Below are positions 55,419 to 64,000 of a stretch of 64,000 nt of DNA, in pieces. The stretch is from Planctomycetota bacterium. Lineage in GTDB: Bacteria > Planctomycetota > Phycisphaerae > SM23-33. A model generated the notes under the pieces. The model was not told the DNA's origin, ran no database searches, and was given only the letters and a program-made list of their open reading frames with translations. Positions within the stretch are counted from its first letter, which is position 1. Each line of letters begins with the position of its first letter. The translations under genes were made by a program, and so were the position numbers. The stretch spans positions 1 to 64,000 of the forward strand of contig JAKPKY010000199.1 in assembly GCA_029553505.1 (NCBI GenBank), written 5' to 3'.

Positions 55419-56282
55419 TCATCCGTTGTCGGACGACTCCGCCGAGGCGCCGTTTTCTTCCGCCTCCGCCGCCGCGCCCGCCGGCTGGGGCAGGCGTCCG
55501 CAGACCTCGACCCGCTCGATCGACTGGGCCATGCCCGTTTCCGGATCGACCGACACGAGCACGCCGCAGAGACGCGGGTCGTCGTTGGCGACCTCGAAGA
55601 AGTGGGGCATGGAGGTGGTCATTGCCGCCAGCACGCGGTCCTTGCGCCGCCCCAGCACGCTGTCGTAGGGCCCGGTCATCCCGACGTCGGTGATGTGGGC
55701 GGTTCCGCCGCTCAGGACGCGCGCGTCGGCCGTCGGAATGTGCGTGTGCGTGCCGAACACCACGCTCGCCCGCCCGTTGAGGTGCCAACCGATGGCCACC
55801 TTCTCGCTGGTCGCCTCGCCGTGGAAGTCGACCACGCGCAGCTTCACGTCGGGGGGCATCTCCAGCAGCACGCGGTCGATGGTGGTCCAGGGCGAATCGT
55901 ACTGCCCCATGTACATCTGCCCGAGCACGCACGCGACGCCCACCTTGTATTGACCCGATTTCGTCGGCACGACCGTCCAGCCGCGCCCCGCCGCGCGCGG
56001 CGAGAGGTTCGCCGGGCGCACGATGCGGTCCGAGTCGCGCATCGCCGAGACGATGTCCAGCTTGCGGAAGACGTGGTCGCCCAGCGTCACGACGTCCACG
56101 CCGTAGTGCAGCAGCTTGCGGAAGATATGCGGCGTGATTCCGCTTCCTCCTGCGGCGTTCTCGGCGTTGCAGACCACCAGTTCGAGCTGGTGGTCCTGGA
56201 TGAGACGGGGCAGGTGGTCCGCCAGCATGCCTCGCCCGGGATGGCCCACCACGTCGCCGACGCAAAGGATGTTAATCGCCAT
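55419..56282 (-). CDS. ymdB: YmdB-family metallophosphoesterase
   Basis: A 287-residue dinuclear metal phosphoesterase. Opening NILCVGDVVGHPGRGML gives the first metal Asp; NAENAAGGSGIT, LGDHVFRKLDIV, DFHGEATSEKVA and VVFGTHTHIPTADAR carry further His, Asp and Glu ligands. Bacillus YmdB is a cyclic-nucleotide phosphodiesterase affecting biofilm and motility decisions; activity here is inferred from family. The C-terminal ~20 residues are low-complexity Ala/Glu. It is convergent with the sigma-54 activator, sharing a terminator hairpin. Confidence 0.9.
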   Translation of the reverse strand: MAINILCVGDVVGHPGRGMLADHLPRLIQDHQLELVVCNAENAAGGSGITPHIFRKLLHYGVDVVTLGDHVFRKLDIVSAMRDSDRIVRPANLSPRAAGRGWTVVPTKSGQYKVGVACVLGQMYMGQYDSPWTTIDRVLLEMPPDVKLRVVDFHGEATSEKVAIGWHLNGRASVVFGTHTHIPTADARVLSGGTAHITDVGMTGPYDSVLGRRKDRVLAAMTTSMPHFFEVANDDPRLCGVLVSVDPETGMAQSIERVEVCGRLPQPAGAAAEAEENGASAESSDNG

Positions 56283-57186: not shown

Positions 57187-57333
57187 GCCCGCGGCGCCCG
57201 CGGAAGGGAAAGCCCGGCTCGGTGTTTCGGCGGCGTGGCGATCTTGGTACAATGAATCGACGCGAACCTTTCGCCCGACCGGAACGTTGTAGATACGGCG
57301 GGGCAACAGGACTACGTGTTCAGGGAGAAGCCT

Positions 57334-59964
57334 GTGAAGCATAGGATGTTGCGAAGATCGTGGAGCATCCTGTGGATCCTGGCGGTCTGGACGACGGCGC
57401 CGATGCTGGCGGGCGGTCTGTCGGACGACGTGCCTTCGACCCAGCCGGCGACCGCTTCGTCCCAGCCTGCCGCCGGACCAGCGAACCAACCCGCCACCCA
57501 GCCGGCGACCGTCGAATCGGACGAGACGCAGGCGGCCAGGCTGGCGACCACGGCGATGGAGGAAACCCTCTCCGGAAAGTTCGTCCACGCGCTGACGCTC
57601 CTCGACGAGGCTCACAAGCTCGCGCCGACCAATGCCACGGTCCTGGCGGCCGAATCGCTCCTGAAAGACTATCTCACGCAGTGCAACCGCATGGAGACCG
57701 AACGCACCCGCGAATACACAGCCACCGTCGCGCGGATCGAGCGGACCTTCCTGGCCGAAGAATCCCTTCCGAAACTCGCCGAAAAGGGCCTGGACAAAAA
57801 GCTCCGCGAGGCGGCGCAGGAACTCGCCAAGTCGTTCAATCGCATTTCGTTGAGCGACGCGTTGGAAAGCGAGACGGACCCCGCAGCGGCCGCCAAGCTC
57901 CGAACCGACACCCTGGGCGCGATCGACAAGTGCCTGGAACTCGCGGGCAAGGTCGCCTCGCCGCTGGACGGCGACGAGAGCGAATATGCCCGGTCCTTCC
58001 GCGCCCTGCGCGACGCGCTGACGCGCGAGCTTCGCGCCTACCGCGCGTGCTGGCACGATGTGCAGACCGCGCAGTCCAAGGCGCGCCTCGCCGGCGCCGC
58101 GCAGCTCCGCGCCGCCGAGGACGCGCTGCTGGAATCCATGGGCAACCTGGAGGCGATGATCGCCGAGAAGCCCTGGCGCGTGGGCCTGTCCCAGGCGCGC
58201 CTGGCGATGCAGCTCGTGCCCGATCCTGCGGCGCCGAAGAGCGAAGAGTGGTACCGCAAACTGGTCTCCCGCGCCGAGACGCTGGGGGAAGAGTTCATCG
58301 CCCGCGCGGAATGGCAGGACGCGATGTCCGTCTATACCAGCCTGGAAGACCTGGACCCCGACAGCGAAGCGTACAAGGCGAAGTCCAAGGCGACGCAGCG
58401 GCACGTGCGCGTGCTGAACCTCTACGGCGCCAAGCCCCAGCCCGCCACCGCGACCCAGCCGGCCGAAGGCGAAAACGACGGCATCGGCGACTGGCGCGAC
58501 CTGACGCGCGGCGTCGACGCCGACATGGTCAAGCGCGCCATCACGCAGCTCAACCAGTACTACGTGACGGCCGTCGATTACCGAAAGCTCGCGCGGGGGG
58601 CGCTGGAGAGCGTGAAGGTGTTGGCCGAGACGCCCCAGGCGGCCAACAGTTTCCCCGCCCTTGCCGACGCGCAGAAGAACAAGGAGTTCCTCCAGGCCGT
58701 AGACCAGGCCCTCGACAGCTTGGAGAAAAAGGACCGCGTCACGCACCTCCAGCTCCAGCTGGCGCTGAATACGGTGCTGCTGGCGTCGGAGCGGACGGTG
58801 AAGGTTCCCGTCGAGGTGCTGGCGGTGGAGTTCACCGACGGATTCCTGGACGAGATGGACAAGTTCAGCTCGATGGTCTGGCCGCACGACGTGCCGGACT
58901 TCCAGAAGCACATCCGCGGACAGTTCTTCGGGGTGGGGATACAGATCACCAAGGAGCCGGGCGAGCCGCTGAAGGTGGTCACCCCGCTGCCGGACTCGCC
59001 CGCGCTGAAGCAGGGCCTCAAGGTGGGCGACGAGATCGTCGCCGTGGACGGGCGCGAGACGGCCGATTTGCCCCTGGACCGGCTCGTGCAGATGATCATG
59101 GGCCCCAAGGGCAGCAAGGTGACGTTGCGGATCCGCCGCCAGGGGCTCGAACCGTTCGACGTGTCGATCATCCGCGACGAGATCCGCATCGAGACCGTCA
59201 AGGGCTGGCAGCGCAAGCCTGACGGCGGAAACGGCGAGTGGGACTATCTCATCGACAGGGACAGCCGGCTCGGATACATCCGCGTGACGCAGTTCACCGA
59301 CGGAACCTACGCCGACCTGGTGGCGGCGCTCAACGAGCTCAAGGCGCAGCAGGCGCGGGGGCTGATCCTGGACCTGCGGTTCAACCCGGGCGGGCTGTTG
59401 ACGTCGGCCACCCAGGTCGCCGACGAGTTCCTCCGCGCCGGGCGGATCGTCTCGACGCGCGGGCGGCAGGTCCGCCAGACCGAGTCCAACGCGACCGCCT
59501 ACGGACGCTACCTCGACGGAGACCTGGTCGTGCTGGTCAACGAGGGCAGCGCCTCGGCCGCCGAGATCGTCTCCGGCGCGCTGAAGGACTGGCGGCGCGG
59601 CGTCATCGTCGGGCAGCGGTCCTTCGGGAAGGGCAGCGTGCAGAACGTCATTCCCATCCAGGACCACCCGGCCCTGCTGAAGCTGACGACCGCCTACTAC
59701 TACCTGCCGACGGGGCGGCTGCTCCACCGGCGCAACGGCGACAAGGACTGGGGCGTCGATCCGGACGTTCGCGTGCTCGTCACGCCCCGGCAGATGAAGC
59801 GCTGGATGGACCTGCGCCGCAAGACGGACCTGCTCGATCGCGAGGCCGACCTGGACGACCTGCGGGATACCCTCGACAAGCAGTTGGACACGGACCTCCA
59901 GCTTCGGACGGGCGTGCTGCTGCTGAAGCTGATGCGCCTCCAGCAGTCCCGCCCGGCCGCGTGA
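57334..59964 (+). CDS. S41-family (C-terminal processing) peptidase with long N-terminal domain
   Basis: An 876-residue exported protease. GTG 57334 follows GGGAG; the longer GTG 57316 is less well supported. A signal-like segment (SWSILWILAVWTTAPMLAGG) is followed by a Pro/Thr/Gln-rich linker and ~450 residues of mostly helical sequence with TPR-like character. The C-terminal ~370 residues hold a PDZ domain (GVGIQITKEPGEPLKVVTPLPDSPALKQGLKVGDEIVAVDGRE in parts: GLKVGDEIVAVDGRE) and the S41 catalytic core: GYIRVTQF, LDLRFNPGGLL, catalytic Ser in VNEGSASAAEIVSG, and Lys in GQRSFGKGSVQN. Tsp/CtpA enzymes trim periplasmic proteins. It is coupled to a tetraheme lipoprotein downstream. Confidence 0.92.
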   Translation: MKHRMLRRSWSILWILAVWTTAPMLAGGLSDDVPSTQPATASSQPAAGPANQPATQPATVESDETQAARLATTAMEETLSGKFVHALTLLDEAHKLAPTNATVLAAESLLKDYLTQCNRMETERTREYTATVARIERTFLAEESLPKLAEKGLDKKLREAAQELAKSFNRISLSDALESETDPAAAAKLRTDTLGAIDKCLELAGKVASPLDGDESEYARSFRALRDALTRELRAYRACWHDVQTAQSKARLAGAAQLRAAEDALLESMGNLEAMIAEKPWRVGLSQARLAMQLVPDPAAPKSEEWYRKLVSRAETLGEEFIARAEWQDAMSVYTSLEDLDPDSEAYKAKSKATQRHVRVLNLYGAKPQPATATQPAEGENDGIGDWRDLTRGVDADMVKRAITQLNQYYVTAVDYRKLARGALESVKVLAETPQAANSFPALADAQKNKEFLQAVDQALDSLEKKDRVTHLQLQLALNTVLLASERTVKVPVEVLAVEFTDGFLDEMDKFSSMVWPHDVPDFQKHIRGQFFGVGIQITKEPGEPLKVVTPLPDSPALKQGLKVGDEIVAVDGRETADLPLDRLVQMIMGPKGSKVTLRIRRQGLEPFDVSIIRDEIRIETVKGWQRKPDGGNGEWDYLIDRDSRLGYIRVTQFTDGTYADLVAALNELKAQQARGLILDLRFNPGGLLTSATQVADEFLRAGRIVSTRGRQVRQTESNATAYGRYLDGDLVVLVNEGSASAAEIVSGALKDWRRGVIVGQRSFGKGSVQNVIPIQDHPALLKLTTAYYYLPTGRLLHRRNGDKDWGVDPDVRVLVTPRQMKRWMDLRRKTDLLDREADLDDLRDTLDKQLDTDLQLRTGVLLLKLMRLQQSRPAA

Positions 59965-59972
59965 GCAAACCG

Positions 59973-61319
59973 ATGCGATGGCCCGTTCTGGCAGCGATGG
60001 TCGCGATGGCGCTGGCCGGATGCGACCGAACCGGCGAACACGGCGCGCCGCCGTCGCCCCCGAGCGCGGCGAGCGTCGCGCCGTTCGACTTTCCCCCCGA
60101 CGCGGTGCTGCTGGTCACCTGCGGCTCCGACGGCATGCTCGAGGCCTGCAACTGCGCCGGAACGCTGGAAGGCGGGCTCTCGCGCCGCAGCGGGTTGTTT
60201 GCCTCCTACCGCGCCGCCTTCGCGCGGACCTTCGCCCTCGACGCGGGCGACTTCTCCTGGCTGGACGCAGCCGACCTCCGCAACGAATACCTGCTCCGCG
60301 CGTATCGCTTCGTGGACTACGACGCGATCGCCCTCGGTGTCGGTGAGATGAGCGCCACGCCCGCGCAGCTCGCCCGGCAGATGCGACGCGCGCCGCTGCC
60401 GTACCTGGCCGGGACGGTCTCTCCGGCCGACCGGTCCGTCCGCTGGCCCGCCGCCCGCGTTGTCCGCCGGCAGTGGGGCGACGTGCGGCTGGCCGTCCTG
60501 TCCTATCTCCCGCGGGAATCCCTCCTGTTCGCCCCGGCCGAGACGGTCGAGGCGCTGGCGTTCCAGTTCGACGCCGACTTCGCCGCGCAGGCCGCCGTGC
60601 TGCGGAGCGAAGGATGCGTCGTGATCGTCGTCTGCCAGGGCGACGACGAGACGGCCGAGAAACTCGCCTCGTGGTGTCCTGCCGACGTGATCGTCCGCGG
60701 GCGGACGTCGCGCTCTTTGCCGGCCGTCCGCAGTGCCGCCGGCGGCGCGCGAATCGTGCAGGCGGGCGGATGGGACGTCGTCGGGGCGCTGGCGATGCGG
60801 ATCGAGGGCGGAAAGCTTACGCAGGTCCAGTGGCGGCTGGAGCCCGTCGATACGCGATGGTCCGTGGACCGCCGGGCGCTGTCGGTGTTCCAGGCGTACG
60901 CGCGCCTGGCGGCCCGCAAGGCCCTCGACGCCGAACGCGGCGCGAACGTGCGGCACGTCGCGCCGACGGAGTGCGCCAAGTGCCACCCCGCGCAATTCGC
61001 CGCGTGGAAAGCCTCGCCCCACGCGCGGGCGCGCGCGGCGCTGGCGGCCGGCGGACGCGCCGACGACGAGAACTGCCTCGCCTGTCACGTCGGCGGATTC
61101 CGCGCGCCCGGCGGATTCGTCTCCGCGGCGCAAAGCCCCGACCGGGAGGACGTCGGGTGCCAGGACTGCCACCGCTTCAACCTCGACGAGCACCGGGCCG
61201 CGGATTTCCAGCGTCGCCCGGCCGACGAGAAAGTCTGCACCCTTTGCCACACGCCGCTGACCGATCCGGGCTTCCGCTACGACGCCCGCGCCGCCAAGGC
61301 CCGCTGCCCGAGACGGTAG
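59973..61319 (+). CDS. Tetraheme cytochrome c lipoprotein with metallophosphatase-like N-terminal domain
   Basis: A 448-residue exported protein. Lipobox: MRWPVLAAMVAMALAGC. Residues ~30-315 resemble a calcineurin-like/5'-nucleotidase domain (ALDAGDFSWLDAADLRNEYLLRAYRFVDYDAIALG in parts: DAGDFSWLDA, FVDYDAIALGVGE), with CNCAGTLEGGLSRR early on, although several metal ligands are not evident. The last ~125 residues hold four CxxCH haem sites: CAKCH (~333), CLACH (~367), CQDCH (~396), CTLCH (~422), with spacing and His positions like cytochrome c554-type proteins. A GTG at 59961 overlapping the S41 stop is an alternative start; both suggest coupling to the protease. Probable extracytoplasmic electron carrier. 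Confidence 0.87.
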   Translation: MRWPVLAAMVAMALAGCDRTGEHGAPPSPPSAASVAPFDFPPDAVLLVTCGSDGMLEACNCAGTLEGGLSRRSGLFASYRAAFARTFALDAGDFSWLDAADLRNEYLLRAYRFVDYDAIALGVGEMSATPAQLARQMRRAPLPYLAGTVSPADRSVRWPAARVVRRQWGDVRLAVLSYLPRESLLFAPAETVEALAFQFDADFAAQAAVLRSEGCVVIVVCQGDDETAEKLASWCPADVIVRGRTSRSLPAVRSAAGGARIVQAGGWDVVGALAMRIEGGKLTQVQWRLEPVDTRWSVDRRALSVFQAYARLAARKALDAERGANVRHVAPTECAKCHPAQFAAWKASPHARARAALAAGGRADDENCLACHVGGFRAPGGFVSAAQSPDREDVGCQDCHRFNLDEHRAADFQRRPADEKVCTLCHTPLTDPGFRYDARAAKARCPRR

Positions 61320-61453: not shown

Positions 61454-63193
61454 TCATTCTTCGGTGTCGGTGGTTTCGTCGGTCGGTTCGGGCGGCGGGG
61501 GGACCGGGAACCCGCGGCTGACGTCGATGACGACGGTGCGGGCCATCATGTCGCCCAGGCGCTGGCGGTTGCGGTTCATGACCGTTACGAGGATCAGCAG
61601 CGGAACGAGGATGGGCATCATCAGCAACCAGGAGACTTCCAGGACGCGCACGAGGTTCCGCAGCACCACGCCGCGGACGTCGGCGGGCAGGCCCTGGTCG
61701 CCTGCGACACGCAGGCGGAAGATGAGCTTTCCCAGCGTCGCGCGGAAACGCAGCTCCATCAGGAAACAGTAGAGCCCGTAGAGCACCGTCGCGGCGATGA
61801 CCGAATAGGCGAGGGACGCGGGGAAATCCTTCTGCCGGGGCGCTGCCTTGATCATGTCGATCATCTGCTGCTCGGTCATGGACCCCACCTGGGCGTAGAA
61901 GATGGCCGACATGAGCACGAGGAACGGCAGGAAGTCGATCATCGCGGCGCCCAGGCGCTTGCCCAGCGGCGCGAGGCGCACGTAGGGGGGCACGAGGAAC
62001 AATCCCGACTGGCCCTTGCGGCGGAGGGCGAACATCGCCGCAAGGATCGCGCCGAGTAGGATCCAGTTGAACGCCTGGTACGCTTCCTGCCCGCCGGTGC
62101 CCAGCGGAAATCGCTGGAAGATGGACAGGGTTTCCCCGGCCGAAACCTGCCCGTTCAGGTCGGCCGAGGCGCTGTGGTACTGCCCCTCCTGCCGCCAGAC
62201 GATCGTGAATTTGCCCTTGTAGGCGGCGCCCGCCGGCCAGGAGTCGCCTGGAAGCTCGAACGAGTTGCCGTTGCGCAGCAGGGGGCGGGCGGCGAACGTC
62301 CGCTTGTCGGCGTCGAAGGTCGCCAGGTGCAGCGCGATCGCCTCGTTGCGCGGCGCGGGGGTGGCCAGGAGGATCGCCAGGCGTCCCTGGAGGCGGGTCA
62401 TGGCCAGCGGGGTCGCGCCGGCGACGAATCCCTCCAACGCCAGTTCGTGGACGGCGCCGGAGGACGTGACGGTGAACAGGCGGTTTGGCGCGGCGTGCCC
62501 GCCGGGCAGCAGGACGAACAACTCCCCCTTGAGCGCGGTCAGGAAGGCGTTGGCGCCGGGCAGGACGGCCAGCGGCGGCAGGTCCGCCAGGTGCGTCCAC
62601 TCCCCGCTGAGGTTCTGGAAGATGCCGATCTGGACAACGCGCCCCGCGGGCAGGTGTCGGGGCGCGGTGCTCGGCGCGGGTCGCGTGGCGGTCCGTGCCG
62701 GTCGCGTGGCGTTCTTCGCGGAGGCCTTGGGCGGCGGGGGGGAGATCGGCGCGGGCAGTCCGGCCGGCTGACGCGGAACCGCCGCCAGCAGCGACGGCGC
62801 GGCGCCCGTCACGAACTCGCCGGCCTCGCACGCGCCCATCGCGGCGGCGTCGGCGGGCCAGCGAGCGTCCATCCCGCTCGCCAGCGGAGTCGTGCCGCCT
62901 TCCATGTCCAGCCGCAGGTAGCCCGCGGGTTTCTCGAACAGCACGTGCAGGCCCTGTCCGACGGCCACCGCCGCCACCGGCCTGCCCCCCAGCGCCGACG
63001 GCGTGGCCCACTTCCAGTCCACGTGCGCGGGCTTGACGGTCACGTCGAAGCTGCGCCCGTCCTCGCTGAGCCGCACCAGCCAGAGCCCGTCGTTGTTGCC
63101 CGACAGCAGCAGCCTCTGGGCGCGGGCCGGCGCCGCCGTCGCCAGGGCGACCGCCAGAAACGCCGCCAGTTTCGTCGCACGGGTCCAGGTCAC
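61454..63193 (-). CDS. RDD-family membrane protein with large extracytoplasmic N-terminal domain
   Basis: A 579-residue protein. GTG 63193 overlaps the upstream gene's stop (GTGA), implying coupling; the longer track frame is a shadow. It has a signal sequence (ATKLAAFLAVALATAAPARA), then ~360 residues that look like a beta-propeller or repeat domain (LLLSGNNDGLWLVRLSEDG, LFTVTSSGAVHELALEGF), interrupted by a Pro/Ala/Arg linker. A helix (ILLGAILAAMFAL) leads to an RDD domain with AAMIDFLPFLVLMSAIFYAQ, GLYCFLMELRFRATLGKLIFRLRV and SWLLMMPILVPLLILVTV. RDD proteins are transport- or envelope-linked, with unclear function. The C-terminus is acidic. Confidence 0.85.
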   Translation of the reverse strand: MTWTRATKLAAFLAVALATAAPARAQRLLLSGNNDGLWLVRLSEDGRSFDVTVKPAHVDWKWATPSALGGRPVAAVAVGQGLHVLFEKPAGYLRLDMEGGTTPLASGMDARWPADAAAMGACEAGEFVTGAAPSLLAAVPRQPAGLPAPISPPPPKASAKNATRPARTATRPAPSTAPRHLPAGRVVQIGIFQNLSGEWTHLADLPPLAVLPGANAFLTALKGELFVLLPGGHAAPNRLFTVTSSGAVHELALEGFVAGATPLAMTRLQGRLAILLATPAPRNEAIALHLATFDADKRTFAARPLLRNGNSFELPGDSWPAGAAYKGKFTIVWRQEGQYHSASADLNGQVSAGETLSIFQRFPLGTGGQEAYQAFNWILLGAILAAMFALRRKGQSGLFLVPPYVRLAPLGKRLGAAMIDFLPFLVLMSAIFYAQVGSMTEQQMIDMIKAAPRQKDFPASLAYSVIAATVLYGLYCFLMELRFRATLGKLIFRLRVAGDQGLPADVRGVVLRNLVRVLEVSWLLMMPILVPLLILVTVMNRNRQRLGDMMARTVVIDVSRGFPVPPPPEPTDETTDTEE

Positions 63194-64000
63194 TTGCGCG
63201 GGCCTTTCCTGTCCAGGTCCTCGTCGATCAGCACCGGGCGCAGGTTCGGCGGGAGATTCTCGCGGAACCGGCACGATTCGGTGGCCCACTTGTCGGCCGT
63301 CGTCATCTCGCTGAGCACCATCCGCAGGCGTCGCACCGGACTGGTCTGTCCAGGCCAGTCTTCCCAGACGATCTCGATGTCGGTGGGCATGACGGCGTCG
63401 AGGTTGGCCGCCTGGCGGCGTGCCGCCTCGGCATCGTCTTCGGGCGGGGGCGTGTCGATCGGGCGGTAGTCGCGCAGGTGCGCCGTCATGATCCTCCGCC
63501 CCTGGTTGTCGAAGAACTTCACCAGGAACGGCTCGCGGCGCTGGCGGTCCGACCAGCGGATGTAGATTTCCCTCCGGAAGACGATCTTTCCCGTGACGCT
63601 CTGGCGCTCGACGTACGTCAGCACGTACGCGCAGGGGTCGCGGCTCATGGTCAGCGCGACGGCGGGAAAGGCGGTGCTGTCGGGGGGGAGTTCGCAGAGG
63701 GTCAGGACGGCCAACAGCTGGTTCGGGTCGATGGACACCCCGCGGACGCCCGGCGCGCCGGCGAACTGGTTCCGTCCGTACCACGCGCCGCCATGATCGC
63801 CCGCGTGGAACCAGAGATAATATACGCCTTCCTCGGCGCTGGCGCCGAGGCGGAAGATCTCCTGCCCCAGCTCACGCCCGATCAGCGCGAAGTTGTGCGG
63901 GCCAAGCGGGCGGGCGCCGTCCTTGGCGAGCAGCAGCAGGCCGTTCGGGCTCGCCAGAGGGCTGGCCGATCCGAGGGTCACGGCGCGTCCGGCCTCGTCG
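63190..64000 (-). CDS. LolA-like/outer-membrane lipoprotein carrier-related protein (5' end missing)
   Basis: Open to the window edge, at least 269 codons; the frame continues upstream past the track's GTG at 63981 as DEAGRAVTL, so the true start is outside. The visible part is beta-strand rich: GVYYLWFHAGDHGG, NQLLAVLTLCELPPD, YVLTYVERQ, KIVFRREIYIRWSDRQRREPFLVKFFDNQGR, TDIEIVWEDWP, VRRLRMVLSEMTT. This alternation resembles LolA/lipoprotein-carrier-like incomplete beta-barrels found near RDD proteins, but a firm family match cannot be made by eye. It is coupled to the RDD gene by a GTGA overlap, so the two probably act together at the envelope. Confidence 0.7.
   Translation of the reverse strand, partial: DEAGRAVTLGSASPLASPNGLLLLAKDGARPLGPHNFALIGRELGQEIFRLGASAEEGVYYLWFHAGDHGGAWYGRNQFAGAPGVRGVSIDPNQLLAVLTLCELPPDSTAFPAVALTMSRDPCAYVLTYVERQSVTGKIVFRREIYIRWSDRQRREPFLVKFFDNQGRRIMTAHLRDYRPIDTPPPEDDAEAARRQAANLDAVMPTDIEIVWEDWPGQTSPVRRLRMVLSEMTTADKWATESCRFRENLPPNLRPVLIDEDLDRKGPRK

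Follow-up and report, generated by a model that had tools for sequence, protein, structure and literature searches.

A UshA-like tetrahaem lipoprotein from a planctomycete carries a cysteine motif in place of the phosphatase metal motif and occupies a slot beside an S41 protease gene

The closest described relatives of the protein reported here are the UshA-like (seleno)proteins of NCBIfam NF041198, a family named for years and catalogued as CxU (PMC13188914); COG0737 UshA-like CxU proteins were recorded earlier in ocean metagenomes (PMC2398784). In the literature on this family we found catalogue entries only, with no biochemistry and no reported function. Its hallmarks are a UshA-like domain, a CxC/CxU motif followed by G[GS]..RR, a C-terminal tetrahaem domain and predicted export, and all of these recur in a 448-aa lipoprotein encoded in the window, i.e., the whole 64,000-nucleotide stretch of DNA that was analysed. 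The two-domain architecture is already catalogued; new are the pattern of the Cys-for-metal exchange and the S41 slot. The features of the gene are as follows.

59973 to 61319, plus strand: UshA-like / tetrahaem c554-like lipoprotein, 448 aa (translation, domain profiles, homologues)
59973 to 60023, plus strand: signal peptide and lipobox (MRWPVLAAMVAMALAG followed by C, Cys17), read from the sequence; the lipobox Cys is kept in most homologues of the class
60105 to 60929, plus strand: 5'-nucleotidase-like domain spanning about aa 45-319, with most metal ligands lost (family profile against PDB, ligand table)
60117 to 60188, plus strand: TCGSDG...CNC...GGLSRR motif (Cys50, Cys59, Cys61), in place of the DxH metal motif
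60972 to 61250, plus strand: tetrahaem c554-like domain with CAKCH (334), CLACH (368), CQDCH (396) and CTLCH (422)

The NF041198 model matched the window protein with 105.3 bits (E=2.9e-30), below its 275-bit cut-off, and because this curated cut-off is not reached we file the protein as a divergent relative and not as a formal member. Its CNC...GGLSRR stretch (aa 59-72) aligns with the CGU/CGC of the Sec and Cys paralogues, and the C-terminal tetrahaem domain is present. Unlike NF041198, the window protein has Cys instead of Sec and CNC instead of CGC/CGU, keeps one old metal ligand and adjoins an S41 protease. In NF049981 (UshA-like selenoprotein family 2, CxxU) a Cys/Sec motif likewise replaces DxH in the same fold, but the window protein scores 23.5 bits against the 140-bit cut-off of that 262-residue model, and the CxxC-type relatives read from the class have no haems. 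The haem domain resembles cytochrome c554 (PF13435, PDB 1bvb) in its CxxCH spacing and WxxxxHA motif, and differs from it in being fused to a UshA-like domain.

The match to Cytochrome_C554 (PF13435) was well defined, with 53.9 bits vs. a gathering cut-off of 20.8. All four CxxCH sites are invariant in the homologue alignment (n=24), and in 100,000 shufflings of the protein four such sites never arose, the maximum being two. His350, also invariant among the homologues, is a candidate distal haem ligand. At the other end of the protein, a signal peptide is followed by the lipobox LAG-C with Cys17 as its cysteine. Together, the lipobox and the four c-haem sites support the prediction of a lipid-anchored, exported redox protein, and with it the extracytoplasmic redox role that had been proposed in an earlier note on this DNA. 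That note had also described a lipoprotein joining a 5'-nucleotidase-like fold to four CxxCH sites, a description borne out by the translation, Pfam and the family profile. It would have given up its reading had cytochrome c maturation genes been absent genome-wide, but they are present: CcsA- and ResB-type genes lie adjacent to each other on one contig of the window genome (G000:C145). CcsA was found in 17/17 genomes bearing the fusion vs. 34/43 others (p of about 0.04 calculated by hand and uncorrected for relatedness), an association that is consistent but weak. With CcsA next to ResB in the window genome and none of the 17 fusion genomes lacking CcsA, haem attachment is feasible.

The fold of the N-terminal domain was recognized at the level of the family. 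A single-sequence scan of the 448-aa protein gave no Pfam match to a metallophosphatase domain, but a profile built from 24 family members matched the solved 5'-nucleotidase 2z1a with E = 2e-35 and SoxB with E = 6e-19, and the claim of a 5'-nucleotidase-like fold holds on this ground. Comparison with the 5'-nucleotidases revealed that six of the seven metal and catalytic positions are lost in the window protein: DxH is replaced by G51/D53, GNH by V123/G124, the SH position by Q222 and the GHxH position by R244, leaving D93, the Asp of the GD motif, as the only survivor. Since the metal ligands are gone, the term metallophosphatase fits the fold only. This bears on the reading of an active enzyme, be it a phosphatase, a nucleotidase or a SoxB-type thiosulfohydrolase, that incidentally carries a cytochrome. 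The profile match to 5'-nucleotidases and SoxB speaks for it, and the fold over about aa 45-319 is indeed that of 5'-nucleotidase / UshA / CD73 (COG0737) and of SoxB (TIGR04486). However, the DxH, GNH(E/D), SH and GHxH residues of an active enzyme are lost here, DxH is absent in 24/24 homologues, and the NCBIfam scores remain far below the cut-offs, with 15.1 of 600 bits for UshA and 14.3 of 550 bits for SoxB. We therefore regard an active hydrolase as very improbable; judged by its residues, the N-terminal domain has ceased to be a nucleotidase.

What is retained instead is a cysteine. Among 24 homologues, Cys61 and three glycines are the sole invariant positions of the UshA domain, and Cys61 was retained in all 14 additional distinct homologues with a readable N-terminus. 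Cys59 is replaced by Ala in one homologue (L018 of genome G026, motif EPAGC), in which the Cys at the Sec position is kept, so that a Cys-Cys disulfide is not obligatory. In paralogues read from seven genomes of other Planctomycetota families, an in-frame TGA stands exactly at the Cys61 position (CGU). Each of these Sec copies occurs in tandem with a CGC copy, and both carry four CxxCH (L077, L081, L082, L084, L065, L070 and L087). In L091 and L092, the Sec/Cys paralogues come after a sigma factor and a zf-HC2 anti-sigma-like gene. The selB gene was detected above cut-off in 7/7 TGA-bearing genomes tested; none was detected above cut-off in the window genome (G000, 73% complete), G001 or G006, among others. 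The window protein itself is a cysteine form: the codon for Cys61, aligned with the selenocysteine of relatives, is TGC (60153-60155), and the 73%-complete genome has no selB above cut-off. An internal TGA in L023, a homologue from G006, was suspected to encode Sec; on reading, the haem domain of this homologue appears frameshifted, and the suspicion was rejected. Two G006 copies (L023 / L043 and L010 / L042) seem to be frameshifted inside this domain, which suggests decay or an assembly error.

Twenty UshA-domain proteins without haems, taken from the same class and retrieved with the same profile as the haem-bearing homologues, served as a control. Seventeen of them retain DxH and have no Cys motif; DxH occurs in 0/24 haem-bearing homologues. 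The other three (L147, L152 and L156) are haem-less, lack DxH and carry CxxC, resembling UshA-like family 2, and no cytochrome gene was seen near them. Haems are thus not obligatory for a Cys motif. Haems without a Cys motif never occurred in the set examined, while a Cys motif without haems does.

From this arrangement we infer thiol/selenol redox chemistry and electron flow between the cysteine and the haems, together with a provisional substrate and direction. The 5'-nucleotidase-type domain has lost its dimetal phosphatase centre, and the pair Cys59-x-Cys61 (relatives have Sec at the second of these positions) lies just past the former DxH ligands. Most likely, Cys61, with Cys59, would be reversibly oxidised, or would attack a substrate that is itself oxidised (a disulfide, an S-S or Se species or a peroxide, for example), and the haem chain would supply or remove the electrons, to or from a periplasmic cytochrome pool. 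Taken as a whole, the best explanation is a thiol/selenol redox module that is exported and joined to a tetrahaem domain of the c554 type, and we consider it somewhat likelier to be right than wrong. The protein is probably a redox enzyme or an electron carrier and not a phosphatase, and belongs to a known but uncharacterised family. An AlphaFold model built from two sequences (mean pLDDT 33.7) was too poor to locate Cys61 relative to the haems.

The main rival to this thiol/selenol module is a new Cys-ligated metal site, in which Cys/Sec and the remaining Asp/His near the old dimetal site would bind a new metal; the domain would then be a metal-centred reductase or hydrolase that the haems feed. 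Metal coordination by selenocysteine is known elsewhere, e.g., in formate dehydrogenase and NiFeSe hydrogenase, the motif adjoins the old DxH ligands, and the D93 equivalent is Asp in 17/24 homologues, as the H222 equivalent is His in 17/24. Nevertheless, neither position is invariant, unlike Cys61, and the same is true of the others; the window protein keeps only D93, with Q222, R244 and V123 elsewhere. We consider such a site rather unlikely. Loss of the phosphatase residues together with invariance of the four CxxCH could also be expected if the N-terminal domain were merely a scaffold or a substrate-binding module and the protein an electron-carrying tetrahaem lipoprotein. As this leaves unexplained both the strict retention of Cys61 and its replacement by Sec in relatives, we hold it to be unlikely, a little more so than the new metal site.

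Two-domain homologues were found in 17/60 genomes, the window genome included, and are also widespread across the phylum; every homologue comes from this one phylum, and many of the compared genomes are incomplete. The window genome is of the Phycisphaerae type. A homologue from the same genus shares 91% identity, as does one on a public contig of Phycisphaerales bacterium UBA12270. In the scan of genome contigs the 91% congener was the only match, and no relative was found in the viral contigs searched.

The genes flanking the cytochrome, and loci of a further gene seen upstream of it in other genomes, are as follows.

57316 to 59964, plus strand: S41 C-terminal processing protease (N-terminal extension, PDZ, S41), a core gene of the class
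61454 to 63784, minus strand: RDD-domain protein (start codon uncertain), a conserved convergent neighbour marking the synteny slot
L098:8103-9173, L099:7457-8485 and L100:8238-9257: DUF1573 loci

The S41 protease scored 167.7 bits with PF03572, above cut-off, with intact Ser and Lys motifs (SASAAEI, SFGKG), and its stop codon ends 8 nt upstream of the cytochrome ATG. The earlier note had taken this pair for one redox-processing system. Translational adjacency stands, and same-strand adjacency is seen in 8/10 fusion-bearing genomes of the window's family (window genome included) as well as in two further families: the genes are directly adjacent in f9 and separated by about 1 to 1.5 kb in f11. 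All this would fit a cooperation, e.g., redox-controlled processing of the cytochrome, or of an envelope substrate common to both, by the protease, a reading compatible with the others. The single system is not supported, though: S41 is present in 54/60 genomes vs. 17/60 for the two-domain cytochrome, and in four relatives (G005, G012, G013 and G021) the S41-RDD order is kept and S41 directly abuts RDD, the cytochrome gene being cleanly missing. G004 and G026 carry the two genes on separate contigs. In G007, as in the window, the RDD gene flanks the cytochrome. Within this conserved slot the cytochrome is an accessory gene. Adjacency does not by itself argue for a joint system, and the adjacent S41 is probably a co-located core gene, not a partner in the chemistry of the cytochrome. 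We rejected an obligatory protease-cytochrome unit on this synteny and consider joint action of the two improbable, at slightly longer chances than the scaffold. Two further neighbours were recorded: a YmdB-family protein (PF13277; window 55419-56282, minus strand), which is close to the S41 gene in L040 and L101 as well, and the DUF1573 protein, which carries an SCGCT motif, lies on the same strand upstream of the UshA-like cytochrome in three genomes and is a possible partner.

The exchange of a metal motif for an invariant Cys/Sec, the Cys form in all haem-bearing members and the tandem Sec/Cys copies give this long-named family a concrete, testable mechanism, and the pattern cautions against labelling such proteins 5'-nucleotidases. 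More tentatively, and at somewhat less than an even chance, a phosphatase fold may here have been turned into an oxidoreductase that relies on Cys/Sec and is hard-wired to four c-haems, which would be an uncharacterised enzyme class widespread in Planctomycetota and a new activity of their envelope.
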